A DNA stretch of 41,273 nt from Myxococcaceae bacterium (lineage in GTDB: Bacteria > Myxococcota > Myxococcia > Myxococcales > Myxococcaceae). This document shows, piece by piece, positions 1-13,462 of the stretch. Position 1 is the stretch's first letter; each line of letters opens with the position of its first letter. The notes beneath the pieces were generated by a model, which was not told where the DNA came from, made no database searches, and saw only the letters and a list, made by a program, of their open reading frames with translations. The stretch covers positions 1 to 41,273 of the forward strand of contig JAKEEX010000165.1 of assembly GCA_022616315.1 (NCBI GenBank), read 5' to 3'. The translations under genes and the position numbers were made by a program.

Positions 1-684
1 CCCGAGCCCATCACCAAGACGGTGGACGGCGTGCTCCACGAGCCGATGGAGCTCATGGTGTGCGACGTGCCGGACACCTCGGTGGGCTCCGTCACCGAGC
101 GGCTGGGACCCCGCAAGGGCCGCATGGTGGACATGGGTCAGCTGGGCGGAGGGCGCACGCGCCTGCAGTTCCGCATCCCCGCGCGCGGGCTGGTGGGCTT
201 CCGCAACGAGTTCCTCACCATCACCCGTGGTGAGGGCATCATGAGCAGCCAGTTCGACGGCTACGAGCCGTGGTTCGGGGCGATCGCCAAGCGGCAGAAC
301 GGCGCCATCGTGTCCGACCGCGCGGGCGACACCGTGCCCTACGCCCTCTTCTCCATCCAGGAGCGCGGCGCGCTCTTCGTGGGGGCGGGCGTGACCATCT
401 ACGAGGGCATGGTCATCGGCGAGCACAGCCACTCGAACGACCTCAACGTCAACGCCTGCCGTGAGAAGAAGCTCACCAACATCCGCGCCGCGGGCCGCGA
501 CGAGAACGTCATCCTCACCACGCCCCGCGACATGGGGCTGGAGAAGGCGCTCGAGTGGATCGCCTCGGACGAGCTGGTGGAGGTCACTCCGAAGTCGGTG
601 CGCATCCGCAAGCGCAAGCTCGCGCTGAACGACCGCTACAAGGACGACCGGGACCGCAAGCGCGAGGCGATGGGCGGCGAGTAG
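1..684 (+). CDS. typA: TypA/BipA translational GTPase, C-terminal part (5' truncated by window)
   Basis: The frame is open from base 1 and ends with TAG at 682-684, so about 227 C-terminal residues are present and the GTPase domain lies outside the window. The visible part carries TypA/BipA hallmarks: EPITKTVDG at the start, DVPDTSVGSVTERLGPRKG, RLQFRIPARGLVGFRNEF, TRGEGIMSSQFDGYEP, a YEGMVIGEH-type segment, and LVEVTPKSVRIRKR near the end. These form the domain V and BipA-specific C-terminal domain that bind the ribosome. The family is known for ribosome-associated roles in 50S assembly and in stress or low-temperature growth. The gene ends tail-to-tail with nfsH, leaving only three bases between the stop codons and no obvious terminator hairpin. 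Confidence 0.95.
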   Translation, partial: PEPITKTVDGVLHEPMELMVCDVPDTSVGSVTERLGPRKGRMVDMGQLGGGRTRLQFRIPARGLVGFRNEFLTITRGEGIMSSQFDGYEPWFGAIAKRQNGAIVSDRAGDTVPYALFSIQERGALFVGAGVTIYEGMVIGEHSHSNDLNVNACREKKLTNIRAAGRDENVILTTPRDMGLEKALEWIASDELVEVTPKSVRIRKRKLALNDRYKDDRDRKREAMGGE

Positions 685-687
685 GCG

Positions 688-1275
688 TCAGAACGTGTAC
701 TTCACCCGCGGAAAGATGGCGACCGCGGGGATGTTCGGGCCCACCACCAGCCGCACGGACACGTCCGCGCCGATGCTGAAGTGGTCCATGAACGTGGCGT
801 ACTCCACGCCCAGGCCCACGCCCACGTTGGGTCCGCTCATGCTGCCCGCCGCCCCTTCCGTGGGCGACGGATCCATGAGCGTGAAGCCCACGAGGAGCTT
901 GGGCGTGAGGTAGACGCGGTCCGCGATGGGCAGCAGATAGGCCGCCGATGCGTCGAGGAAGAACACGGTGAAGTTCTCGGATCCGACGCACGCCCCCGCC
1001 GGCGTGCGCCCGCCGAAGCAGTTGGCCGCGTTCGAGCCGAGCCCGAAGTGGCCGCCCAGCGAGAAGCGGTCCGCGAGGTCGTACCCCAGCCCCAGCTGCA
1101 GGTACGTCTGGGCATTGGAGTAGCCATCCACGCCGCCGAGCGTGAAGAACATCCCCACGTCGGTCTCCACGAAGAAGCCGCGCCGCACCTGGGGCACGAC
1201 GCCTTCGGGGGGCGCGGCCGCAAGCGACGCGGCCGGCAACAGTGCCACTGCACAGGACACGAGCAACGTCCTCAC
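688..1275 (-). CDS. nfsH: NfsH/GltH-type outer-membrane beta-barrel protein
   Basis: The predicted protein has 195 residues and starts at GTG 1275, preceded by AGGAGG. An upstream in-frame ATG at 1296 would add seven residues before the signal peptide and is less likely. The N-terminus (RTLLVSCAVALLPAASLAA) is a clear Sec signal. The mature part alternates short amphipathic strands such as YLQLGLGYDL, FSLGGHFGLG and NVGVGLGVEY, and ends in ...RVKYTF, whose terminal Phe is typical of BAM-inserted barrels. It is the last of eight co-directional genes matching nfsA-H. In Myxococcus xanthus NfsH and its paralogue GltH are outer-membrane components of the Nfs (spore coat) and Glt (gliding) machines. 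Assignment rests on position and protein class. Two cysteines (CFGGRTPAGAC) could form an extracellular-loop disulfide. Confidence 0.7.
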   Translation of the reverse strand: MRTLLVSCAVALLPAASLAAAPPEGVVPQVRRGFFVETDVGMFFTLGGVDGYSNAQTYLQLGLGYDLADRFSLGGHFGLGSNAANCFGGRTPAGACVGSENFTVFFLDASAAYLLPIADRVYLTPKLLVGFTLMDPSPTEGAAGSMSGPNVGVGLGVEYATFMDHFSIGADVSVRLVVGPNIPAVAIFPRVKYTF

Positions 1276-1313
1276 GCAGCCTCCTGCGGGTCCCATGAGC
1301 CGTCTCCTTCGCG

Positions 1314-3245
1314 CTACTCCTCACCGGCCTGCTTGAAGATCCAGGGGAACGTCACCACGGTGGAGCCGCCGCTCTGGGCCTCGGGGAACTTCCAGCGCCG
1401 GATGCGGGAGACGATGCAGTCCTCCACGGACCGGTTGCCCATGGTGGTCTCGGCCACCGTCGCGTCCGACACCTGCCCCGTCGCCTCGATGGTCCACACG
1501 ACTGCGATCTTGCCGCCGAGCGCAGGGTTCTTCTGCAGCTCCTTCTCGTAGCAGAACTGGATCTCGTTCTGATGGCGCCGGATGACCTGGGCGATCACGT
1601 CCTTGTCGAGTCCGCCCACCACCGTCGTCTTGCCGGGGATGATCTTCGTGATCTCCTTGCCCCCGCGACCGAGCCCGAGTCCACCGGTGCCACCGGGCCC
1701 ACCGCGCCCGGTGCCACGCGTGCCGAGGCCTCCGATGCCCAGGCCCGTGCCTCCACCGCCCGTCCCGGTGCCGCGCGCACCGAGGCCGCCCACACCCTGC
1801 GCGTCACCCAGGCCCTGGCCGCCGGTGAGGCCGCCGAGCGCGGTGTTGATGCCCGTGCCGAGCCCGCCCGGGCCGAAGACGTCCGAGGCCGCGCCCCTGC
1901 CGAGGGCGCCGAGCAGACCCGCCTGCGACACCAGCTTGCGGTCCTCCTCGCGCCTGTCCTTGTCCACGGTGGGGGCGCCCTTCTTGGAGGCGTCCGCCTC
2001 TTTCTTCTCGGCGTCCCTCTTGCCGAACTTGCCTTCCTCGTCCTTCGCCTTCGCGCCCTCGTCCGCGCCCGCCTGCTTCTGGGCCTTCTTGAACTGCTGA
2101 AGGTCGATGATCTTCTGCGGCTTGACGACGAGGCGCGCGTACTGCGCGGGGTTGCGGAAGATGTCGTCGCTCAGCGAGTTGTCGGGCGGAGGTGACATCA
2201 GCACCGCGGCGACGAGTGCGAAGAACACCATGAGGCAGACGCTGGCGATCTTGAAGTAGGTGTAGTCCGCCTCCTTCAGCAGGCCCACCGAGACCGCCGC
2301 GTCCGGACGCACGTAGCGGAGGACGAAGGACAGGGTGTCGAGCCGGACCTCGGCCCGGTCGTGGAGTCCCAGCTCCACGCTTCCGCTGGCGGCCGTTGCC
2401 GCCTGGCCCCGGCGGGCCACGCGCGCTTGCGCTCCCTCCGGAACGTGCACGGCGGCCTGGCTGCCACGGTTCTCCGCGAGCGCGAACTGCTCACCCACCC
2501 GCGGGGAGTACACGATGACCGAGTTCTGCCGGCCCTCTCCGACGATCACGGGCGCGCCGTCGCGGAAGTGACGGACGTCCAGCAGCGTGTCCCCGCCCCA
2601 GAGCAGGGCCACCTGGAGCACCCGCGCGGTCTCCGTGGGCTCGGCGCCCGGCGGCGTGGCGTCCTCGAAGCGAATCGGGAGACGTCCGGTGAACGCCTTC
2701 CGAGCGGGTGCTGCGCGCTGGGAAGCGAGCGGCGGCGGCCGTGAGCTGCCGAGCGGGGGGATGGCAGGCGGCACCGGTCCCGGCACCCGCTGTCCACCAG
2801 AGGGCGCCCTCAGCGTGTTCGCACTCCCGGACGTGGCGCTACGGACCGCAGGCCGCGCGGCCGGCGCCGATCGCGCGGGCTCGGCACGTCCGAACGACTC
2901 CACCGCGGCCGCCGCGGCACCACGCCCGTCACCGCCGAAGAGCACGCGCACCTGCGTGGCGCCCACGTGGAGGACGTCCCCGTCGGACAGGGGCACGGGC
3001 TGCGTGATGCTCGAGGCGCTGGAGCCCACGCGCGTGCCCGTCTCGCTTCCGAGGTCGATGGCGGTGACGACGCCATTGGTCTCCACCTTCAGCATCACGT
3101 GGAGGTTGGAGACCCGCGGGTCCACGAGCCGGACAGCCGCACCGGCGCCGGAGCCAAGGATGATGCTGTCCTGATCCGACGTGGACTCGACCACCGAGCC
3201 ATCCGGTCCCGTGATGCGCAGGGTGAGTCCGTTCTTCTTCGACAT
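1314..3245 (-). CDS. nfsG: NfsG/GltG-type inner-membrane protein: FHA domain, one TM, AgmX/PglI C-terminal domain
   Basis: The protein has 643 residues and starts at ATG 3245 with AGGAGG nine bases upstream. Residues about 5-105 form an FHA-like fold (IILGSGAGAAVRLVDPRVSNLHVML, then DLGSETGTRVG). A Pro/Ala-rich linker follows. Residues about 205-325 are a second beta-rich domain of the type found in PglI/GltG. A single TM segment (FKIASVCLMVFFALVAAVLM) then leads to a charged Lys/Glu stretch, a long Gly-rich tract and a TonB-like AgmX/PglI C-terminal domain (VIRRHQNEIQFCYEKELQKNP ... IRRWKFPEAQSGG) with a conserved Cys pair. The topology is cytoplasmic FHA, periplasmic C-terminus. By analogy with Myxococcus, it would link the proton-driven AglRQS motor to periplasmic and outer-membrane partners. 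It lies between nfsF (42 nt) and nfsH (38 nt). The FHA is degenerate at the usual Gly-Arg and Thr-Asn positions. Confidence 0.8.
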   Translation of the reverse strand: MSKKNGLTLRITGPDGSVVESTSDQDSIILGSGAGAAVRLVDPRVSNLHVMLKVETNGVVTAIDLGSETGTRVGSSASSITQPVPLSDGDVLHVGATQVRVLFGGDGRGAAAAAVESFGRAEPARSAPAARPAVRSATSGSANTLRAPSGGQRVPGPVPPAIPPLGSSRPPPLASQRAAPARKAFTGRLPIRFEDATPPGAEPTETARVLQVALLWGGDTLLDVRHFRDGAPVIVGEGRQNSVIVYSPRVGEQFALAENRGSQAAVHVPEGAQARVARRGQAATAASGSVELGLHDRAEVRLDTLSFVLRYVRPDAAVSVGLLKEADYTYFKIASVCLMVFFALVAAVLMSPPPDNSLSDDIFRNPAQYARLVVKPQKIIDLQQFKKAQKQAGADEGAKAKDEEGKFGKRDAEKKEADASKKGAPTVDKDRREEDRKLVSQAGLLGALGRGAASDVFGPGGLGTGINTALGGLTGGQGLGDAQGVGGLGARGTGTGGGGTGLGIGGLGTRGTGRGGPGGTGGLGLGRGGKEITKIIPGKTTVVGGLDKDVIAQVIRRHQNEIQFCYEKELQKNPALGGKIAVVWTIEATGQVSDATVAETTMGNRSVEDCIVSRIRRWKFPEAQSGGSTVVTFPWIFKQAGEE

Positions 3246-3287
3246 GGGGCCGTCCTCCTGGAGGTGGGCGCTCGACATGGGGGCGGA

Positions 3288-3557
3288 CTAGAGGTTGTCG
3301 ACGGACTTCTGGAGCTCGGGATTGAAGTTGTCCCTGACCTTGATGAGGCTCTTGAAGCGGGTGCGCTTCTTGTTGAGCACGTAGGAGCCTTCGGGACGCG
3401 TGATCTCGCCGTCGACGGTGACGTCCGTGAAGTCCACCACCGTCTTCTTGCGGACGACCACGCGGTCCTCCTCCTGGACGGTCCGGACGGTGTCCTGGGC
3501 CAGCGCCGGTGAGGCCACCAGCGTCAGGAGGGTAGTGACCAGGAGCATGCGCTTCAT
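3288..3557 (-). CDS. nfsF: NfsF/GltF-type small exported protein
   Basis: This 89-residue protein starts at ATG 3557 with AAGGAG nine bases upstream. Residues 1-21 are a signal peptide (MKRMLLVTTLLTLVASPALAQ) with an AxA cleavage site. The mature part of about 68 residues is highly charged (VVVRKKTVVDFTDVTVDGEITRP ... LNKKRTRFKSLIKVRDNF) and contains a VDF-DVTVDGEI-RP element, which suggests a small beta-structured periplasmic adaptor. No enzymatic motif is visible. Its place between the TPR lipoprotein and the FHA protein matches nfsF/gltF in Myxococcus xanthus, where the product is also small. It is separated from nfsE by 166 nt that hold a strong hairpin, so its expression may differ from that of the upstream genes. 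Family assignment is by synteny and size. Confidence 0.65.
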   Translation of the reverse strand: MKRMLLVTTLLTLVASPALAQDTVRTVQEEDRVVVRKKTVVDFTDVTVDGEITRPEGSYVLNKKRTRFKSLIKVRDNFNPELQKSVDNL

Positions 3558-3671
3558 CGTCGTGTGTCTCCTTCTCGCGTTCCTGCTGGGTGAGACACCG
3601 TCCGTCCACCCGGGTTCCGTCCACGGTAGGGCTTGAGACTCGCCGGCAGAATCGAGCGCCGGTTGAAGCGT

Positions 3672-3716
3672 CCGCGGTGCAACGCTCCGCCCACGTCGCG
3701 TGGGCGGACACCGCGG
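3672..3716 (-). promoter_or_regulatory. Large hairpin between nfsE and nfsF
   Basis: The perfect inverted repeat 3686-3695/3699-3708 forms a 10-bp stem with a three-base loop. It is extended by an 8-bp outer stem, 3672-3679/3709-3716, with a six-base bulge on one side only. It begins eight bases after the nfsE stop codon (3724) in the direction of transcription. No run of T follows on the minus strand, so it does not look like a classical intrinsic terminator. Likelier roles are an mRNA-stability element, an RNase processing site, or a partial attenuator setting the ratio of NfsA-E to NfsF-H. The structure is seen directly; the role is inferred. Confidence 0.55.
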
Positions 3717-3723
3717 GAAAGCG

Positions 3724-5118
3724 TCAGGGCGTGGGCGTGGGGGCCCCCTTCTGCTCGGCCGCCTCTGCTCCCTGCCCCTGCGGTGTCCCCTCTGCCGCGC
3801 CGTCGCCTGCGGGCGGTGCTTCACCCTGGGGCGTGGGCGCGGCTCCCTCCTGCGCCTCCTCCTCCGCGGTCACCTTGTCCAGGAGTCCGCCACCCCCCGG
3901 CGTGGCCGGGCGTGGAGTCGGCTTCTTCTCCTCCGGCGCCGCCTGCGCCTGGCCCGCCTTCATCACCTGGGCGAGCGTCTTGAGCTTCACGTCCACCTTC
4001 TGGCGCTCCACCTCGGGGACGGACGAGAGCCCCTTGCAGCGCTCGAGGAGGGAGATGGCCTTCGCGTAGCCTTGCTTGTCCGCCGCGTACGCCCAGCCTG
4101 CGCCACACACGGCCTCCGGGGAGTCCGGTCGGAGCGAGAGCACCTTCTCGAACGCCTCGCCCGCCGCGAGGCCCTTCTTCGGATCCCTCCCCTTCTGCCC
4201 ATCCAGGGCGTAGGCCAGGTACAGCCTCGCCTCGGACGAGGTGCCGTCCAGCTCCACGGCGCGCCGGAAGGCGGTCTCCGCGGCCGCGTAGTCCCGGTAG
4301 TTGAGGGCCATGGCGCCGATGTTGAGGTGACCCGGGGCGAAGCGGTCGTTCAGCGAGACCGCCTTCTTGAACTGCGTGAGCGCAGCGCCGCGGTCGTTCA
4401 GCTTGAGGAGGATCATCCCGTAGAGGTTGTAGACACCGGGGTCCTTGTCATCGAGCTGGTAGGCCTTCTCCGTGACGAAGCGCGCGAGCGGGTAGTTGCC
4501 CTGCTCGAAGTAGATGAGCGCGAGGTTCTTGTAGGCCTCGGGGTCGTCCTTCCTGCGCTCGAGCACCCGGCGCGCCGCGGCCTCCGCCTTGTCGTACTGA
4601 CGCGTCAGCCGGTAGGCCACGGTGAGGTTGTTGAGCAGCTCCACGTCGTGGGCGCGGGACTCGTCCCGGAGGATGGGTTCGTAGAGGGTGATGATCTCCT
4701 GGGCGCGGTCCTGCAGCCGGAAGAGGCGGCCGAGGTTGAGCAACGAGGGCTTGTGCGCAGGTTCCAGCTTGAGGGCCGCCTCGTACTGGCGCTTCGCGTC
4801 GTCGAGCTTGCCCTCGCGCTCGGCGAGGAGCGCCAGGTTGAACTGCGCGGCCACGCTGTCCGGCTGCTTGCGGAGCACCTCGGTGAAGCCCTTCCGGGCC
4901 TCCTCGAGGTTGCCGGACTGGAAGGCCTGGACCGCCTCGCGGAAGCGCTCGTCGGCGGACCTGACCACGGGCTTCGGTGGTGCCTTCTGGGCCACCCCGA
5001 CCGGGTCCTGCTTCTTCACGGGCGGGGCGGTCGCACAGGCGGCAGCGGCCAGCGCGGCTGCGGCGAGCAGGACGCGAGGACCCAAGACGCTCGGCTGGGG
5101 GATGCGTGCGTGGAACAC
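3724..5118 (-). CDS. nfsE: NfsE/GltE (AglT)-type TPR lipoprotein
   Basis: The protein has 464 residues. The start chosen is GTG 5118, one base after the nfsD stop, with AGGAGG nine bases upstream inside the nfsD end, which suggests translational coupling. The N-terminus is a lipoprotein signal (VLLAAAALAAAAC) with the lipidated Cys near residue 28. Residues about 55-400 hold consecutive TPR motifs, for example AQFNLALLAEREGKLDDAKRQYEAALKLEPAH and AYKNLALIYFEQGNYPLARFVTEKAYQLD. The last 60 or so residues are a Pro/Ala/Glu-rich tail. In Myxococcus xanthus AglT/GltE and its paralogue NfsE are TPR proteins of the periplasm/outer-membrane subcomplex. No Asp follows the Cys, so outer-membrane targeting by the Lol pathway is expected, placing it beside the beta-barrels and NfsC/D. 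Confidence 0.75.
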   Translation of the reverse strand: MFHARIPQPSVLGPRVLLAAAALAAAACATAPPVKKQDPVGVAQKAPPKPVVRSADERFREAVQAFQSGNLEEARKGFTEVLRKQPDSVAAQFNLALLAEREGKLDDAKRQYEAALKLEPAHKPSLLNLGRLFRLQDRAQEIITLYEPILRDESRAHDVELLNNLTVAYRLTRQYDKAEAAARRVLERRKDDPEAYKNLALIYFEQGNYPLARFVTEKAYQLDDKDPGVYNLYGMILLKLNDRGAALTQFKKAVSLNDRFAPGHLNIGAMALNYRDYAAAETAFRRAVELDGTSSEARLYLAYALDGQKGRDPKKGLAAGEAFEKVLSLRPDSPEAVCGAGWAYAADKQGYAKAISLLERCKGLSSVPEVERQKVDVKLKTLAQVMKAGQAQAAPEEKKPTPRPATPGGGGLLDKVTAEEEAQEGAAPTPQGEAPPAGDGAAEGTPQGQGAEAAEQKGAPTPTP

Positions 5119-5119
5119 G

Positions 5120-8100
5120 TCAGTGGTCCTCCTCGCGCTGCGCGGATGGAGTCCCGGCGTCTTCGGCGGGGGGCGGCGTTGCCCCTTCCGGTGCGGCGGG
5201 TGCCGGCTTGGCCGCGGGCACGGCCTGCGCGGGCCGCTGCGGCTGCACACGACCGGAGTCGACGAGCAGGGGGGCCGTGCGGAAGAACTCGCTGCCGCGG
5301 AACGGCACCTCGCGCCGATCCGCGTACGTGCCGCGGCGGTACTGGTTCACCTTGTCCTGCGCCTGGAGGGTCCACTCGTTGTAGACGCTGAGCTCGTAGG
5401 CCTTGTCGAGCGCCTTCTCCAGCGCCTCGATGCACTTGTCCTCGAGCGGCAGCGCAAGGTTCTCGAGCTCCGCGCGGTACATGTCGAGCTGCTCCTGCGA
5501 CCTGAGGGTCTTCGGGTCCGGCGAGCTCAGGATGTTCTGCGCCATGTCCGCATACGCCATCCCGATGCGCGTCAGCGCGGCGATGCCCCAGTCCCCCACG
5601 CCGATGGCGAGCACCTCCGTGTAGGCCTTCTCCACGTCCTTGATGCGCCGCTGCTTGGCCGTGAGGTCGCGCCGGAGGGTGGCCACCCTGACGAGGCGGA
5701 TGTCCGTGTACGACTTCCAGAGCGGCTCGAGGCCGAGGAAGCGCGCGTGTGCGTACGCATACTGCACGCGGGCATCCTTCCGGGCCTCCTCGGGCAGCTT
5801 CGCGTGGCCACGCACCAGCTCCGTCTGCAGCCTGTCCGCCTCGCGCTCGTTCTTCACCTCTCGGAAGGCGAGCATCCGACGGTACACCGCCCGGTAGTGG
5901 TCCGCCGCGCCCGTGCGGGTGTCGCGGGCGTAGGTGGTGTTGAAGGACTCGTACGCCGCGATGGCCTGGGTCCACCGCCTGTCCCGCTCGTGGATCTGCG
6001 CGACGCGGAACGCGACCTTCGGCACGTCGTCCTTCGCGGGGAAGCGCTCGATGTAGCGGGTGAAGGCGGCAATGGCCTTTTGCGTATCGCCGAGCCCCTC
6101 CCACCACACGCCCGCGTTGTACTGCGCGTCCGGCAGCCACTTCGCCGCCTCTGAGAGGAGCGTGCTGCGCTCCTGCTCGGGTGAGGTGCCCTCCCCCTCT
6201 GCCGCAGGAACCTCCGGCTTCTGTGGCTTCTCCGCCTTCTCCACGGGAGCACGGCCCTTCGAGCCCCGGCCGGACCTCGCGCCCGCCGTCTTGTTCTTCG
6301 CGTCCCCTGGCCCCTGGGTCTTCGCGTCGTAGGCGGCGATGAAGGCCTCGTACCCCTCCGCAGAGCGCCGGAAGTCCGCCAGCCGCTCGTAGAAGCGCGC
6401 GAGCGTGTAGCGCACCTTCAGCTCGAACTTCGACTGCGGGTACTCCTTCAGCATGCGCTCGCCCGCGATGACGCCCTTGTCGAGCTCGTTGGCGTCGTCC
6501 GCGATGAACATCACATAGGTGAGCGCCCGGTCCGCGTTCTCGCTCCTCGGGAACTCCTTGACGAAGGCGAGGAAGTGCTCGGCGGCCTTCTTCGGGTTCT
6601 TCTCCTTCCGGTAGACCACCTCGTCCACGTACTTGTACTGGCTGCCCTCCACGACCTCGGTGAGCCGCTTCTGGAACTCGCTCCCGGGCTTGTAGAGCTT
6701 CCGGTTGGCGAGGAACTCGCGCGACAGCTGGTTGAGCGCCAGCCACTCCTCCTTCGCGTTCAACACGTGCATGGAGAGGTCGGCGGCGTCCTGGCTGCGC
6801 GACTCGGTGGGGAACCTCTGGATGATGTCCCCGAGGCGCCGTGTGGCCTCCACGAACTGGTTCGCGTCGTAGAAGATGACGGCCGACTCGTAGCGGATGT
6901 CGATCTCGTCCTTCTGGTCCGGGAAGAGCTTGAGGTAGGCGTCACAGGCCGTCACGAGCTTCGTCTCGTTCGCCGTCAGCTGGCGCGCCTGCAGCTCGCG
7001 CGCGTCCCTCTTGACCACGCGCTTGCCCTTCTCCACGCCGCCCTTGCGCGTGTCCTCGCGGACCTTCTGGCCCTCCTTCAGGTGCTCCTGCGCCTCGAGG
7101 CCGCGCTCGATGCGGACCAGCTTCTCGTAGGAGAGGATGGTGTTGTTGGCCGCGTTCTTGCGGTAGCGCTCGTCGGAGACCTCGCGCGCGGAGTCACGCG
7201 GGGGAATCTTGAATGCCAGGACGGCCTCGTACTGGTCCGCCGCCGCCTGCCACTCCTTGAGCGTCCAGAGGATCTCCGCGTAGTAGAAGCGGAGGTTGAA
7301 GGCGTAGTCGCTGACGAAGGCCGGGTCCGCGCTGGTGGCGAACTTGTCCACGTATTGCTTGTAGATGTCCCGCGCGAGCCGGTAGGTCTCCACCAGGTTC
7401 GTCTTCTGCGCCTCGCGGTGGTAGTCGGTGACGATGCTGCGCATCGCCTCCTCGGTGACGCTGAACGCGTTGCGGAGCACCTGATCGTTCTTCGCGTTGG
7501 CCGCCCACCAGGAGGAGCCGGGGCTGTAGAGGTTCGCGAGCTTCTTGATCTCCTCGCGCACGCTGTCGCGCTGCCGCAGACCCTCGAACGCGCGCACGAT
7601 GGACTGCTGGAACTCGGGGGCCCGGGGGTTCATCGGGTCCTCGTTGATGAGCAGGCGGTACGTGTGGATGGCGCTGTCGTAAGCGCCCACCTCGGCGAGC
7701 GTGGCGGCCAGCTTCTCCACCAGCCGCGGGAAGCGCTTCCTGGTCGCCTTCTGCCGGTAGTACGCGATGCCGTCCTCGGCGCGCTCCAGGCGCACGAAGA
7801 AGAGGACGGTGTCGTTGAGCGACTCCGACTTCAGGTCCACCAGCGCCTTGACGTTCGTGGCGCGGTTGGCGTCCGCGTAGTCCACCACCTTCTGCAGCTT
7901 CTCCAGGCCCGGCTGGAACTCGCCCACGTTGAAGTCGCACCAGGCCAGCCGGTAGATGGAGAAGGCGTAGATGCGCGCGTCCTTGGACTTGCTGGCGTGC
8001 TCGTACGCGTTGCGCGCCTTCAGCACGTCCCCCACGTCGAACCAGTGGTTGCCCAGCTGGACGTACGTGTCACCCACGAACTGGGAGCTGGGGTAGTTCT

Positions 8101-8749
8101 TGATGAGCTCGGTGTAGCGCTTGACGGCCTCGGCCTTCTTGTCCGTCTCGTAGAGGTTGAAGCCGAGGTTGAAGAGCACCTCGTCCTTGCGGGGGTAGGC
8201 CGGGTACTCCTTCAGGATGGTCTCGTACAGCCGCATGGTCTCCGAGCGGAGCAGCTCGGACTGGCGGTTGTCCGGCTTCGGCTCGGGCCGCTTCTCTCCC
8301 CGCTGCTGCGCAGCCTCGTGCTCGGCCACCGCCTTCTCGTGGGCGGCCATCTCCTGGAAGTAGAGGTACTTGCTCTTCTCCCAGTAGAGCTCGCTCAGGC
8401 GATAGAGGAGCTCGGCCTTCTGCTCGCTGCCGTCCTCGATGCTGGGGATGATGTCCTTGAGCCGCGCGATGGACTCGTCACGCTTGGCGGCGGCCAGGCG
8501 CCCCTTCTCGCCGTCCTCGAGCTTCGGGACGCGCGCCTCGAGCTTCCTCGGGCCCAGCCGGCCCGGCTCCTCGTCCTCGCCGGTCGCACGCTTCTCTGCC
8601 TTCGCCGCGGTCTTCCCCTTCCCGGGCGCCTGCGTCTGCGTCTGCGCCTTGCGCGGGTCCTTGCGCGGAGGGGCGAGCCACCCGGCGCGCACCGAAGGCG
8701 CTGCGAGCAGCGCGAGGGAGAGCACTCCCACACCAAGCCACGACCTCAT
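5120..8749 (-). CDS. nfsD: NfsD/GltD (AgmU)-type giant TPR protein
   Basis: The protein has 1209 residues, close to the size I recall for AgmU/GltD of Myxococcus xanthus (about 1200). It starts at ATG 8749, overlapping no gene and five bases after the nfsC stop. A signal peptide (RSWLGVGVLSLALLAAPSVRAGW) is followed by a basic linker rich in Lys, Gln and Thr, then arrays of TPR-like helices over most of the chain, for example ELLYRLSELYWEKSKYLYFQEMAAHEKAVAEHE and VLFNLGFNLYETDKKAEAVKRYTELIKNYP. Near residue 830 there is a disordered Lys/Gly/Pro linker (KNKTAGARSGRGSKGRAPVEKAEKP), and the C-terminus is Pro/Ala-rich. It probably acts as a periplasmic scaffold linking the inner-membrane motor part to the outer-membrane barrels. 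Long antisense frames over this gene are codon-bias artefacts. Confidence 0.78.
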   Translation of the reverse strand: MRSWLGVGVLSLALLAAPSVRAGWLAPPRKDPRKAQTQTQAPGKGKTAAKAEKRATGEDEEPGRLGPRKLEARVPKLEDGEKGRLAAAKRDESIARLKDIIPSIEDGSEQKAELLYRLSELYWEKSKYLYFQEMAAHEKAVAEHEAAQQRGEKRPEPKPDNRQSELLRSETMRLYETILKEYPAYPRKDEVLFNLGFNLYETDKKAEAVKRYTELIKNYPSSQFVGDTYVQLGNHWFDVGDVLKARNAYEHASKSKDARIYAFSIYRLAWCDFNVGEFQPGLEKLQKVVDYADANRATNVKALVDLKSESLNDTVLFFVRLERAEDGIAYYRQKATRKRFPRLVEKLAATLAEVGAYDSAIHTYRLLINEDPMNPRAPEFQQSIVRAFEGLRQRDSVREEIKKLANLYSPGSSWWAANAKNDQVLRNAFSVTEEAMRSIVTDYHREAQKTNLVETYRLARDIYKQYVDKFATSADPAFVSDYAFNLRFYYAEILWTLKEWQAAADQYEAVLAFKIPPRDSAREVSDERYRKNAANNTILSYEKLVRIERGLEAQEHLKEGQKVREDTRKGGVEKGKRVVKRDARELQARQLTANETKLVTACDAYLKLFPDQKDEIDIRYESAVIFYDANQFVEATRRLGDIIQRFPTESRSQDAADLSMHVLNAKEEWLALNQLSREFLANRKLYKPGSEFQKRLTEVVEGSQYKYVDEVVYRKEKNPKKAAEHFLAFVKEFPRSENADRALTYVMFIADDANELDKGVIAGERMLKEYPQSKFELKVRYTLARFYERLADFRRSAEGYEAFIAAYDAKTQGPGDAKNKTAGARSGRGSKGRAPVEKAEKPQKPEVPAAEGEGTSPEQERSTLLSEAAKWLPDAQYNAGVWWEGLGDTQKAIAAFTRYIERFPAKDDVPKVAFRVAQIHERDRRWTQAIAAYESFNTTYARDTRTGAADHYRAVYRRMLAFREVKNEREADRLQTELVRGHAKLPEEARKDARVQYAYAHARFLGLEPLWKSYTDIRLVRVATLRRDLTAKQRRIKDVEKAYTEVLAIGVGDWGIAALTRIGMAYADMAQNILSSPDPKTLRSQEQLDMYRAELENLALPLEDKCIEALEKALDKAYELSVYNEWTLQAQDKVNQYRRGTYADRREVPFRGSEFFRTAPLLVDSGRVQPQRPAQAVPAAKPAPAAPEGATPPPAEDAGTPSAQREEDH

Positions 8750-8754
8750 GACCC

Positions 8755-10314
8755 TCAGTCCTCCTCGCCCCCGCCCGGCGCCGGCGGACACCCGCTCTTC
8801 AGCGTGTACTGGTAGTAGCCGATCTCGTCGCGCCAGAACTCGCCCTGGAACAGCCAGTAGTTCCAGTTCTCCGCGGGCACCTTGGGCCGGTGGATGGTCT
8901 TGTTGGCAAGGAACGCCTGCAGGTCCACGCCCGCCTCGACGATCTCCTTCTCCGCGTTCGCGGTCTCGAAGCGGATGATCTTGGCCTGGTCGTGGAAGGT
9001 CTTGATGTTGCGGTAGGCCTCGAGGAGCCGCTCTCGCGCCAGCGTCCCGGCCACCTTCACCAGGACCTCCCGGTTCTGGTCCAGGTCACCCTGGAGGGTC
9101 TCCGCCATCCGGCCACCGCGCCACGCCTGGTTGCCCGCGATGAGCGCCTTCTCGCGGTCAATCTGCGCGAAGTTCGAGGCGAGGTCGCGCAGGCGCTCGT
9201 TGGCGCGCACCCACAGGGAAACGGGCCTCGGCAGGCGCCCCTCGTCCCGCGTGATGGCCTCGTAATAGAAGGAGGGCTCCCGCGGGTCTCCCGTCACCAG
9301 CGGCTCGAGCGCCTGGCGCATGGGGAGGTAGATCTTCTCGTAGTCATCCAGTGAGCGCTTGGCCTCGTCGTACAGGCAGGTGAAGTAATAAACCGTGGCG
9401 GTGAGCACGCGGGACTCGGGCTGGAACGCCCCAGCGAACTGCGGCGAGTAGAGCGCCTGCAGCGTGCCGAGCGCGCCGCCGTAGTCTTCGTTCTGGAAGC
9501 GCGCGAAGCCATTCTCGAAGAGCGCCACGTCCCAGTAGCGGCTGAAGCGAGGGATGCGCTCGTACGCGTCCACGGCCTTCTGGAACTCGCCGGTGCCGTA
9601 GTACAGGCGCCCCATGCCGAGCAGCGCGAGCTCCTGGGCGTTCCTCAGGTTCGCCTGCTTCAGGTCCTTGAGCGCGACCACCTCCTCGAACGCCGAGGCC
9701 GCGGCGCGGTTGAGCTCGCGGGCGGTGTCCGGGTTCTCGCGGCCCGGATAGCGCGGATCCGCGAGCACGACGCCGAGCAGGTAGCGCGCCTGCGCGTGGA
9801 CCGCGCTCTCCTTTGGCACCGCCTCGAGGAACGTGCGGGCCTCCTCGAACTTCGCCCTGCGCCGCGCGATGTTCCCGATGAGGAAGTTGACGCGGTTCTG
9901 CACCTCCGCCGGCAGCTTCGCCCACTCCGCCTGGTCGTAGCTGTTGTTGATGAGGCTCGGGACGAGGTTCTGGTCGTCCAGGAGGGCCTGGACGTCCACC
10001 AGGCCCTCCACCGCCTTCAGATAGAAGGGGTGGCTCTTCCCCGCGTTGACGATGGACGCGTACTGGACCAGCGCCGTGGTGGGCAGCCCCGCCTTGAGGA
10101 AGGACTGCGCCAGGTAGTACTCGGATTTCTTCTGGGTCTCCGGGTCGCCCGTGGACTCGGACAGCTCGAAGAAGCGCTGCGCCGCGGCGCTGTGGTCGCC
10201 CGAGTTGAACGCGGAGAGCGCCTGGTTGAACTTGGCGAGCCCCTGACCCAGCGCGAGGCTCGCGGTGAGCAGGACGGCCGTTGCCGTGAGGGGAATCAGC
10301 TGGCGTCGGTTCAT
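8755..10314 (-). CDS. nfsC: NfsC/GltC-type exported TPR protein
   Basis: The protein has 519 residues and starts at ATG 10314. The N-terminus (NRRQLIPLTATAVLLTASLALGQ) is a Sec signal peptide. Residues about 30-350 contain TPR-like helix pairs (FNQALSAFNSGDHSAAAQRFFELSESTG; LALLGMGRLYYGTGEFQKAVDAYERIP). The rest is long helical segments such as RERLLEAYRNIKTFHDQAKIIRFETANAEKEIVEAG and ends with an aromatic segment NYWLFQGEFWRDEIGYYQYTLKSGCPP. The WLFxGExWxDEIGxY block is distinctive and probably a binding element. Position (third gene, between two barrels and the giant TPR protein) and type match nfsC/gltC of Myxococcus xanthus, described as periplasmic parts of the envelope-spanning complex. 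It lacks a lipobox, so it is predicted to be soluble periplasmic. Confidence 0.72.
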   Translation of the reverse strand: MNRRQLIPLTATAVLLTASLALGQGLAKFNQALSAFNSGDHSAAAQRFFELSESTGDPETQKKSEYYLAQSFLKAGLPTTALVQYASIVNAGKSHPFYLKAVEGLVDVQALLDDQNLVPSLINNSYDQAEWAKLPAEVQNRVNFLIGNIARRRAKFEEARTFLEAVPKESAVHAQARYLLGVVLADPRYPGRENPDTARELNRAAASAFEEVVALKDLKQANLRNAQELALLGMGRLYYGTGEFQKAVDAYERIPRFSRYWDVALFENGFARFQNEDYGGALGTLQALYSPQFAGAFQPESRVLTATVYYFTCLYDEAKRSLDDYEKIYLPMRQALEPLVTGDPREPSFYYEAITRDEGRLPRPVSLWVRANERLRDLASNFAQIDREKALIAGNQAWRGGRMAETLQGDLDQNREVLVKVAGTLARERLLEAYRNIKTFHDQAKIIRFETANAEKEIVEAGVDLQAFLANKTIHRPKVPAENWNYWLFQGEFWRDEIGYYQYTLKSGCPPAPGGGEED

Positions 10315-10345
10315 GGTCCGGACCTTCGGCCGCGAGAGGCGGGCT

Positions 10346-11443
10346 TCAGAAGAGGTAGGACAGGCCGGTGTAGAAGCTGACGAGGTTGAGGACGTCGGAG
10401 CTCGGTTCGGCGATGAGCTCGCGCGCGATGGCGAGGTCCGAGCTCCGCGGATTGCCGTCGAGGTCCTGGAAGGACTTGGCGTTGCAACCCGGCCCCCAGG
10501 TACCGCCCGCATTGTTGGCGTTGGTGATGATGGCCTCGATGTCGTCGCGGGTGCAGCCGTTCACGCGGTCCACCCGCGCCGTGTAGACGAAGTCGCGCAC
10601 CTCCAGGCGCACGGCGAGGCGGTCTCCCATCTGCACCCGGAAGCCGCCTCCCACCGAGCCCGTGAAGCGCACCCCTGTCTGCCCGAACGTGGCCTCGGTC
10701 TCGATTCCCTCCTGGTTCCTGCTGTAGGGCACCAGCTGGTGGCGGGTGCTGCCAAATCCCGCTCCGGCGTTGAGGACGAGGCTGAACTGCAGCAACGCGT
10801 CCTCGTTGAACGCGAACTTGCCGTAGAGCGGCGTCACCTCGAAGCCAGCGTTGATGCCCCACTCGAGCAGGAGGGAGCTCGCCGTCTGCGCCGTCTGCTG
10901 CGTCTTCTTGACGAGCTCCTCGTTGAACCCCGACTCCGCGCTGGTCCAGTGCCACTGCGGTGTGAGCTGCAGGCCGAAGTTCTCCTGCAGGTGGTAGGTG
11001 TAGGCGAGCGCCGATCCGAAGTGCTGGGTGAACTTTCCGTTCAACTGCGCGACGAAGGGATAGAGCGTGAACTCGTGCCGTCCGACGTCCGCGAACGCCT
11101 TGCGCTCCACCACGTGGACCGCGACGTCCGGATTGAAGAGAGGTGCGCCGGACACGAGCTCGCCACGGGGGCGCGCTTTGATGGACGGAGCGTCCGCCTG
11201 CGGCGCCAGTGTCGGCGCCTGGCCTGGTGGAGGAAGCGCGGTCTGCTGGATGGGCGCCCCTTCGGCCTCGCCGGTGTCGCGAGCGGCCGGGCTCTCCGCA
11301 TCTTCGTCCTCCTCTTCGTCGGCGGAAGGCGTGGGGGTGGCCTGGGCGACGACGGCTGTGCGGAGGTCCTCCAGGGCGGGAGTGAGCGGTGTCGCGCGGG
11401 CGAGTGGCGCGAGCAGGAGGGCAGCGGTCAGGAGCGAGCGCAT
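10346..11443 (-). CDS. nfsB: NfsB/GltB-type outer-membrane beta-barrel protein
   Basis: The protein has 365 residues and starts at ATG 11443 with GAGG eight bases upstream, nine bases after the nfsA stop. A signal peptide (RSLLTAALLLAPLARAT) precedes a disordered acidic and Pro-rich segment of about 60 residues (DEEEDEDAESPAARD ... LPPPGQAP). From about residue 100 the chain alternates beta strands of an outer-membrane barrel (HEFTLYPFVAQLNGKFTQHFGSALAYTYHL; FQFSL-type strands; VRFTGSVGGGFRVQMGDRLAVRLEVRDFVYTARV). It ends in ...FYTGLSYLF, with terminal Phe. The pattern GGGFRVxxGxxLAVRLEVRDFVY is shared with NfsA (GFRFFTHRGGALRVEVRDWVF), showing the two barrels are paralogues. A disulfide-capable loop (CTRDDIEAIITNANNAGGTWGPGC) is present. 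Expected role: surface contact of the Nfs machine. Confidence 0.75.
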   Translation of the reverse strand: MRSLLTAALLLAPLARATPLTPALEDLRTAVVAQATPTPSADEEEDEDAESPAARDTGEAEGAPIQQTALPPPGQAPTLAPQADAPSIKARPRGELVSGAPLFNPDVAVHVVERKAFADVGRHEFTLYPFVAQLNGKFTQHFGSALAYTYHLQENFGLQLTPQWHWTSAESGFNEELVKKTQQTAQTASSLLLEWGINAGFEVTPLYGKFAFNEDALLQFSLVLNAGAGFGSTRHQLVPYSRNQEGIETEATFGQTGVRFTGSVGGGFRVQMGDRLAVRLEVRDFVYTARVDRVNGCTRDDIEAIITNANNAGGTWGPGCNAKSFQDLDGNPRSSDLAIARELIAEPSSDVLNLVSFYTGLSYLF

Positions 11444-11452
11444 GGGTCCGCC

Positions 11453-12268
11453 TCAGAAGAAGAAGGTGTAGCCGACGTCCGCCATGACCAGATGCGTGAG
11501 CCCGGGTGCGCGCGCCGGGGTGCCACTGACCAGGCCGCTCTCCACGTCGACCCGGTTGATGAGCTCGAGGTAGCTATCGGGGAACACCCAATCCCGGACC
11601 TCCACGCGGAGCGCGCCGCCTCTGTGCGTGAAGAACCTGAAGCCCACCGCCCCGGAGCCGAGAGGTCCGGTCCTGCGGTCCGTGCGAAAGTCGATGCACT
11701 TGCGCGCGCCGGAGGACGTGTCCACCTGGTGGCAGAAGACGATGGACTCGCGCGTGAAGGTGCCCACGCCCGGTCCGGCCCACAGGTAGGCCTGGAAGTG
11801 CACGGGGACGTCACCGAGGACGTTCACCTTTCCGTAGAGCGGCATCCAGCGCACGCCCACGGCGAGGTTGCCGTTGAGCTGCCAGAGGTCCTTCAGGTCA
11901 TCGACCACGACGAACTTCGGCCGGTCACCTCCAGGGTCGTTCCTGACCATCTCGTCCTGGAGATCGCGCGCGAGCCCCGTGAGCCCCGAGAGCGCCCACC
12001 CACCCCGCGCCTCCACGGCGAGCGTCTCCGTGAAGTTCAGGGCCACGCCGAGGTTGAGGTTGTAGTGGTTGGTCAGGCGCGTCAGGATGGTGAGGCCCAG
12101 GACCGGGGAGACCTCGAGCTTCCCCGCCATGGTGTAGAGGCGGTTTCTCACCACCACCTTCTCGACCAGCTCCTCCCCCTCCTGCGCGAGCGCGGCGGGC
12201 GCGGCCAGGAGCGAGAGAACGAGGGGAACGGTGCAGAGGGAACGGGCCATACGCGAGCGCGACCTCAT
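11453..12268 (-). CDS. nfsA: NfsA/GltA-type outer-membrane beta-barrel protein
   Basis: This is the first gene of the nfs operon. With start ATG 12268 it has 271 residues; ATG 12250 (MARSLCTV) is an equally reasonable start, and neither has a strong ribosome-binding site. The signal peptide is SLCTVPLVLSLLAAPAALAQ. The mature part is a beta-barrel with the segments VVVRNRLYTMAGKLEVSPVLGLTI, YNLNLGVALNFTETLAVEARGGWAL, VGVRWMPLYGKVNVLG and GGALRVEVRDWVFPD, ending ...LVMADVGYTFFF. Its EVRDWVF motif and terminal aromatic triplet match NfsB. In Myxococcus xanthus NfsA and NfsB are outer-membrane barrels of the Nfs complex that acts on spore-coat polysaccharide. A sigma-54-type promoter lies 71-85 bases before the 12268 ATG. 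Confidence 0.73.
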   Translation of the reverse strand: MRSRSRMARSLCTVPLVLSLLAAPAALAQEGEELVEKVVVRNRLYTMAGKLEVSPVLGLTILTRLTNHYNLNLGVALNFTETLAVEARGGWALSGLTGLARDLQDEMVRNDPGGDRPKFVVVDDLKDLWQLNGNLAVGVRWMPLYGKVNVLGDVPVHFQAYLWAGPGVGTFTRESIVFCHQVDTSSGARKCIDFRTDRRTGPLGSGAVGFRFFTHRGGALRVEVRDWVFPDSYLELINRVDVESGLVSGTPARAPGLTHLVMADVGYTFFF

Positions 12269-12563
12269 GCGAAGGGACCAGGAACCGGGCTGTTGCTGCT
12301 GCCCGGGTTGCAGCGGGGGAGCTGGATCCGGGCCGGGGGCAAGTCTGGTGCCACACCCGGAGGAAGCAGCACGCTCCCCCTCGCATGGCGCGGCCAATCT
12401 GTTTCGGTGCGGGGCAACGGAGAAGGCCCCGCGCACCTCAGTGTGTGGAAGGGGGCAATTGGAGGCGCGCGGGCGTCACTGGAGGACACGCCGCCCTGGC
12501 CGTGCGCGGCCCAGCGAACGCCTCGAATGCGTGACGCGCCCGCCAGTCCCCTAACGGTGCCGT
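12269..12563. other. nfsA upstream regulatory region
   Basis: About 295 bases between the rplC terminator and nfsA contain no convincing gene. The one clear signal is a -24/-12 element on the minus strand at 12339-12353. The region upstream of that element (12354-12563) is where enhancer-binding-protein sites would be expected. I see no perfect long inverted repeat there by eye. Confidence 0.5.
12339..12353 (-). promoter_or_regulatory. Sigma-54 (-24/-12) promoter of the nfs operon
   Basis: The minus strand reads TGGCACCAGACTTGC, with GG and GC separated by exactly ten bases. It matches the sigma-54 consensus TGGCAC-N5-TTGC at all ten fixed positions. It points toward nfsA and predicts a transcript start near 12328 and a leader of about 60 nt. 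Sigma-54 promoters need an enhancer-binding protein, a very large family in myxobacteria that controls development. The motif is seen directly; activity is inferred. Confidence 0.72.
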
Positions 12564-12634
12564 AAAAAAGAAAGCGGGCGGAGCTGCCGGGGCAGTCCCT
12601 CTCGGGGGACGCACCACCGACCACTCCGCCCGCT
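12564..12634 (-). terminator. Intrinsic terminator of rplC
   Basis: A perfect 11-bp inverted repeat (12573-12583 and 12624-12634) is followed on the minus strand by a T-rich tract (TTTCTTTTTT, down to 12564). The roughly 40-base loop contains a second small stem (CTGC/GCAG). It starts 60 bases after the rplC stop and insulates nfsA from rplC read-through. T-tracts are rare in this GC-rich window, so the call is firm. Confidence 0.88.
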
Positions 12635-12693
12635 CCTGCGCGTCCCCTCCGGCCCTGGAGCCGCAGAGACGCGAGCGATTCGAATCTCGGGGA

Positions 12694-13374
12694 CTACTTC
12701 TTCCCGGCCTTCGCCGCCTTGTGCTGCTCGCGCATGGCCACCTTGATGGAGGGCCGCACGTAGACGATGCCCTGGTTGTGGCCGGCGACGCCGCCCTTCA
12801 CCAGCAGCAGGCCCTTCTCCACGTCCACGTCCACGACGGTGAGGTTCTGCGTGGTGACCTTCTCCACGCCGTAGTGGCCCGGCATCTTCTTGTTCGGGTA
12901 CACGCGGCCCGGCGTCTTGCGCTGACCGATGGCGCCCGGGTGACGCTGGTACTCGTGCGTGCCGTGCGTCTTCGTCTGCGAGCCCTTGAAGTTCCAGCGC
13001 TTCATCACGCCCGTGAAGCCGCGGCCCTTGGTGATGCCCGTCACGTCCACCAGCTGGCCCTTGGCGAACATGTCCGCCTTCACCGCTTCGCCCACCGTGA
13101 ACGCCTCCGCGTCGGCGGCGGACACGCGGAACTCCTTGACGTGGCGGCGCAGCGGCGCGCCCTGCTTCTTGAAGTGGCCGAGCTCCGCCTTCGTGAGCGC
13201 CTTCTCCTTCGCCACACCGAAGCCGAGCGCCACGGCGGAGTACTGGTCCTTCTCCTCCGTCCGCTTGCCCACCACCACGCAGGTGTTCACGTCGATGACG
13301 GTCACCGGCACGAGGTTGCCCTCGTCGTTGAACACCTGCGTCATCCCGACCTTCTTGCCAATCAGACCCTTCAC
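12694..13374 (-). CDS. rplC: 50S ribosomal protein L3, stand-alone gene
   Basis: The protein has 226 residues with the complete L3 fold: KGLIGKKVGMTQVFNDEGN at the N-terminus, DVTGITKGRGFTGVMKRWNFKG, THGTHEYQRHPGAIGQRKTPGRVYPNKKMPGHYG, and LLLVKGGVAGHNQGIVYVRPSI. L3 binds 23S rRNA near the peptidyl-transferase centre and starts 50S assembly. The start chosen is GTG 13374, which gives the family-typical VKGLIGKK N-terminus and has GAGG six bases upstream. An in-frame ATG at 13422 would add 16 residues that look like leader RNA rather than protein. Oddly, none of the S10-operon neighbours (rpsJ, rplD, rplW, rplB) is adjacent; the gene has its own terminator and lies between a ferritin-like gene and nfs. 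It may be a second copy or a relocated single copy. Confidence 0.95.
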   Translation of the reverse strand: MKGLIGKKVGMTQVFNDEGNLVPVTVIDVNTCVVVGKRTEEKDQYSAVALGFGVAKEKALTKAELGHFKKQGAPLRRHVKEFRVSAADAEAFTVGEAVKADMFAKGQLVDVTGITKGRGFTGVMKRWNFKGSQTKTHGTHEYQRHPGAIGQRKTPGRVYPNKKMPGHYGVEKVTTQNLTVVDVDVEKGLLLVKGGVAGHNQGIVYVRPSIKVAMREQHKAAKAGKK

Positions 13375-13394
13375 GTCGTCCTCGCTGCGCTGGC

Positions 13395-13462
13395 CCGCTC
13401 CATGGGAGCGGTCCGGCGCCATCTACCCTTTGGGAATTCCGCCACCTGCCCGTCTGGGCAGG
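13395..13462 (-). promoter_or_regulatory. Structured leader of rplC
   Basis: Two short perfect hairpins lie before the L3 start: 13395-13401/13405-13411 (7-bp stem, 3-base loop), ending 20 bases upstream of the GTG, and 13447-13452/13457-13462 (6-bp stem, 4-base loop). Ribosomal-protein leaders are often autoregulatory RNA elements. No known L3-binding motif can be assigned by eye, so the role is only suggested. Confidence 0.4.

Follow-up and report, generated by a model that had tools for sequence, protein, structure and literature searches.

The locus analysed here, a run of eight genes in an uncultured Myxococcaceae bacterium, encodes parts of an envelope machine of the kind that Myxococcus xanthus possesses in two versions, Nfs and Glt. 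The question it raises is which of the two is encoded, and whether a single ancestral machine might instead serve both sporulation and gliding in this organism. The window (the whole stretch of DNA that was analysed) is 41,273 nucleotides long. A preliminary description had reported eight co-directional genes in the order A to H, with short gaps and three outer-membrane barrels ending in phenylalanine, and this layout was recovered in full: all eight open reading frames lie on the minus strand between 12268 and 688, and six of the seven intergenic gaps are shorter than 45 bp. The genes and their surroundings are as follows.

1..684, plus strand: 3' part of typA, converging on nfsH; typA is likewise reversed at the nfsH end in relatives.
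688..1296, minus strand: nfsH, 202 aa, outer-membrane beta-barrel (OMP_b-brl), paralogue of CglE/GltH; NF033755 189 bits (cut-off 70); ends TF.
1314..3245, minus strand: nfsG, 643 aa, FHA domain (PF00498, E 2.7e-9) plus AgmX/PglI C-terminal domain.
2901..3245, minus strand: NfsG FHA domain, carrying GSG at the position of the GR found in FHA domains that bind phosphothreonine, from alignments and the AlphaFold2 fold.
3288..3557, minus strand: nfsF, 89 aa, small exported CglF-like protein; NF033764 (CglF) 71.5 bits (cut-off 90).
3724..5118, minus strand: nfsE, 464 aa, GltE-like TPR protein; NF033758 124 bits (GltE cut-off 225).
5120..8749, minus strand: nfsD, 1209 aa, giant periplasmic TPR protein; TPR_6 E 8.8e-20.
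8755..10314, minus strand: nfsC, 519 aa, exported GltC-like TPR protein, paralogue of GltC; NF033756 219 bits (GltC cut-off 450).
10346..11443, minus strand: nfsB, 365 aa, outer-membrane beta-barrel (OMP_myx_plus); TIGR04565 68 bits (cut-off 60); ends LF.
11453..12268, minus strand: nfsA, 271 aa, outer-membrane beta-barrel (OMP_myx_plus); NCBIfam TIGR04565 E 6.6e-36; ends FFF.
12269..12693, minus strand: rplC-nfsA intergenic region, 425 bp, likely site of the operon promoter.
12694..13422, minus strand: rplC (uL3), conserved neighbour upstream of nfsA, in the same direction.

From A to H the gaps are 9, 31, 5, 1, 166, 42 (or 9) and 17 bp, the longest lying between nfsE and nfsF, and GC3 of the operon genes is 0.84-0.95. 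The uncertainty in the sixth gap reflects the start of nfsG: translation could also begin at an ATG at 3278, but the ATG at 3245 has AGGAGG upstream and agrees with the start in relatives. The nfsE gene starts with GTG at 5118, preceded by GAGGAGG, and its product is read as a lipoprotein from the cysteine that follows the signal region. The AlphaFold2 model of NfsA, built with 14 orthologues, consists of eight long strands (pLDDT 81.5). NfsG is laid out as an FHA domain, one predicted transmembrane segment, a Gly/Lys-rich linker and the TonB-like AgmX/PglI domain; it scores 333 bits with NF033760, below the cut-off of 650, and 117.6 bits with NF033768, above the cut-off of 40.

The assignment to Nfs, already favoured in the preliminary description, is carried by phylogeny. 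In the tree of D proteins there are three clades (Nfs, Glt and a third set); all three span several families of the order and are supported at 100/100 (UFB/SH-aLRT). The window protein groups with the nfs operon of Myxococcus dinghuensis, again at 100/100, this species serving as the Nfs anchor because M. xanthus, a member of the same genus, was absent from the sets. Placement of the window protein with Glt was rejected by the AU test (p 2.8e-54). The G tree agrees, likewise placing the window protein with M. dinghuensis nfs and away from Glt; D and G are thus assigned by trees, and C, E, F and H by best match only. For C, that match is 53% identity with M. dinghuensis NfsC, as against 27% with GltC from the same genome as the window. 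On these sequence comparisons the operon is orthologous to nfsA-H of Myxococcus, an eight-gene member of an already known machine, and it extends Nfs to another genus of the Myxococcaceae.

As such an orthologue, the operon most likely encodes an envelope-spanning, motor-driven transducer for spore-coat assembly, a role assigned with high confidence by orthology with M. xanthus. Gene content, orthology, the separate Glt set and aglRQS were computed here; motor coupling, transport and the spore-coat role are carried over from M. xanthus, in which nfs and aglRQS have been tied to sporulation and AglR to NfsG (PMC2875238, PMC3858216). By analogy with that species, NfsG would sit in the inner membrane and couple to the proton-driven AglRQS motor. 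NfsC, NfsD and NfsF would span the periplasm to NfsE, a probable outer-membrane lipoprotein, and to NfsA, NfsB and NfsH, the predicted outer-membrane barrels. During sporulation, the complex would then be dragged around the cell by AglRQS, as happens in M. xanthus (PMC3858216), and in moving it would spread and compact the spore-coat (Exo) polysaccharide.

The distribution and age of the Nfs clade bear on this assignment of function. Beyond the family of the window organism, Nfs is present in seven families of the same order. An apparent absence of Nfs in one genome (G001) proved to be only a contig break, since that genome does contain nfsA-C and the beginning of nfsD. Two genomes (G018 and G019) yielded Nfs, the third set and AglQ but no Glt-type D. 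Conversely, the Anaeromyxobacter-like genome G016 (75% GC) has Glt and no Nfs was found in it, in line with the surface motility, without observed sporulation, of A. dehalogenans (PMC2330069). A duplication inside the family was rejected by a topology test on the D tree (p 8e-8), and the Nfs/Glt duplication, judged from these sequences, predates the whole order. This dating contradicts the earlier proposal that a single terminal branch had undergone the duplication recently (PMC3858216).

Because Nfs occurs in several other families, its role may be wider than sporulation. In its strongest form, this argument would have the Nfs-clade machine move some other surface polymer here rather than the spore coat, the clade being older than Myxococcus-type sporulation. 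The presence of Nfs in genomes where no Glt set was found, as well as the age of the duplication, speak for such a reading. It nevertheless seems rather unlikely for the window organism, which belongs to the same family as Myxococcus and shares its synteny, and the Myxococcus nfs genes are sporulation-specific (PMC2875238). Spore-coat assembly remains the preferred function.

The proposal of one ancestral machine doing both gliding and sporulation, raised in the preliminary description as the alternative, could be addressed by searching the rest of the source genome, a draft of 5.54 Mb in 912 contigs that is 93.5% complete. The window set is contiguous, like that of lineages with one set, and its contig has no gltI or gltJ. 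Elsewhere in the genome, however, there is a second D gene on contig C16 with E, F, G and H alongside (gltD-H), together with gltC on C654 and gltJ on C289; a fragment next to gltJ is read as gltI. Every NCBIfam model tested gave this set scores above the Glt cut-offs, namely GltC 954, GltE 557, CglF 131, GltG 869 and GltJ 612 bits, as well as the CglE homologue; a GltD homologue is also present, and the second D protein branches inside the family of the window organism. The gltA and gltB genes of the second set were not seen; its gltC opens the contig on which it lies. Contig C837 of the same genome bears aglRQS-like genes with a HAD phosphatase after them, an arrangement shared with M. dinghuensis and with a further genome (G007). 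With a separate Glt set in the same genome, the single-machine reading is out of the running for practical purposes, barring contamination as the origin of the contigs that carry this second set.

The motor itself appears to be common property. All 21 genomes that were searched have AglQ, among them the Glt-only G016 and also G018 and G019, where the search recovered Nfs and the third set but not Glt. This distribution fits the finding that M. xanthus AglR binds both GltG and NfsG (PMC3858216).

That the window operon is itself the gliding machine is scarcely credible: the NCBIfam equivalog names GltC, GltE, GltG and CglF all appear among its matches and H exceeds the CglE cut-off, but C, E, F and G stay under their curated cut-offs (219/450, 124/225, 71/90 and 333/650 bits), as do NfsC, NfsE and NfsG of M. 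dinghuensis, the AU test is decisive, and true Glt copies lie elsewhere in the genome.

The reasons originally offered for calling the operon Nfs fare less evenly. The absence of gltI and gltJ from the operon interval stands, the sole GltJ match in the window being the tail domain of NfsG. Contiguity does not serve as a mark of Nfs: in three other families (f5, f6 and f9) the Glt genes likewise adjoin one another, in the order B-A-C-D-E-F-G-H or nearly so; in G017 and G020, Glt forms one block, B-A-C-D-E-F-G(-H), and in G016 nearly so. Nfs is better recognised by phylogeny, by gene order (A-B-C as opposed to B-A-C), by the neighbouring rplC and by the FHA signature.

The rplC neighbour was found beside nfs at 14 loci, including the window, in seven families. 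The order rplC-A-B-C-D-E-F-G-H recurs in relatives from several families, which argues that it is not due to chance. A second rplC copy as the cause of the linkage was ruled out, a single copy being found in each of eight genomes. Between families, the uL3 proteins encoded beside nfs share only 46-54% identity, a seemingly low value for this protein. The M. xanthus nfs promoter is contained in the 323 bp that precede nfsA (PMC2875238); a search of the 425-bp region before nfsA in the window for a sigma-70 consensus or a terminator found neither. Two nfs clusters, those of G010 and G005, contain extra, shorter G-like genes (L021:3066-4247 and L024:5523-6476).

In canonical FHA domains the arginine of the GR motif contacts the phosphate, and the FHA domains of YscD type in type III secretion are phospho-independent scaffolds. 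The FHA domain of the window NfsG is modelled by AlphaFold2 as a confident FHA fold (pLDDT 87), and it lacks this arginine of phosphothreonine-binding FHA domains: its GSG (3147-3155) aligns with the GRG of the M. tuberculosis FhaA FHA domain, the nearest solved structure by sequence. Across the order, serine occupies the arginine position in 15 of 16 NfsG rows, the remaining one (G018) having no FHA domain. GltG, in contrast, keeps GR in 16 of 17 rows (L008 and other loci), the exception being the long-branched G015. As a second discriminator, the Asn in the 'TNG' motif of FHA domains was considered and discarded, since GltG also lacks it. The NfsG domain, which the open-access papers searched describe only as a phosphothreonine reader (PMC2875238), is inferred to be phospho-independent.

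These observations suggest, tentatively and with chances a little short of even, that the machines sharing one AglRQS motor differ in gating by threonine phosphorylation. GltG would have kept its binding pocket, NfsG would have lost the arginine already in the order's common ancestor, becoming a phospho-independent scaffold like YscD, and an uncharacterised third machine would have a motor of its own, M2. A pocket in GltG and none in NfsG offers a testable angle on how two machines share one motor.

In the genome of the window organism, the third Nfs/Glt-like set lies on C543 (L009) and an M2-like pair on C857 (L113). Co-occurrence of the two was predicted before the search. An M2 protein at at least 40% identity was found in 17 of the 21 genomes and was absent or weakly matched in G008, G011, G016 and G017; the third set and M2 are both present in 17 genomes and both absent in four, counting a fragment in G005. 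That genome was the sole misfit, and it was resolved as an exception when the third set was located at the edge of contig C419. The four genomes without either do not group as sisters in the D tree, which implies several independent joint losses. The M2 homologue of AglR bound neither NfsG nor GltG (PMC3858216), making the third set its natural candidate partner. We infer that the M2 motor may drive the third set, a testable proposal for what this orphan motor drives. The third set is presumably M. xanthus G4 or G5. Several genomes also contain a fourth, more divergent D-like set (L148, L150, L151, G019 C10 and G017 C1:2961493), possibly G5.

Among the systems compared, the third set has a C-D-E-G core in common with the window operon, with about 26% identity in D; F and H were not found in the third set, and that set co-occurs with the M2 motor. 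M. xanthus Glt (G1+G2) has paralogous A-H components and shares domain layout and AglRQS with Nfs. It differs from the window operon in its D protein (about 30% identity), in the addition of GltI, GltJ and GltK, and in the FHA phosphate-binding arginine, which GltG retains and NfsG lacks. The Nfs proteins of M. dinghuensis, the orthology anchor to M. xanthus Nfs, are 46-57% identical with those of the window, and their operon likewise has rplC upstream and typA downstream. M. xanthus NfsA-H itself (MXAN_3371-3378, cluster G3) has these eight genes, identically ordered, and the window operon is the tighter of the two, with 5 versus 214 bp between C and D and 17 versus 152 bp between G and H (M. 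xanthus values from PMC2875238).
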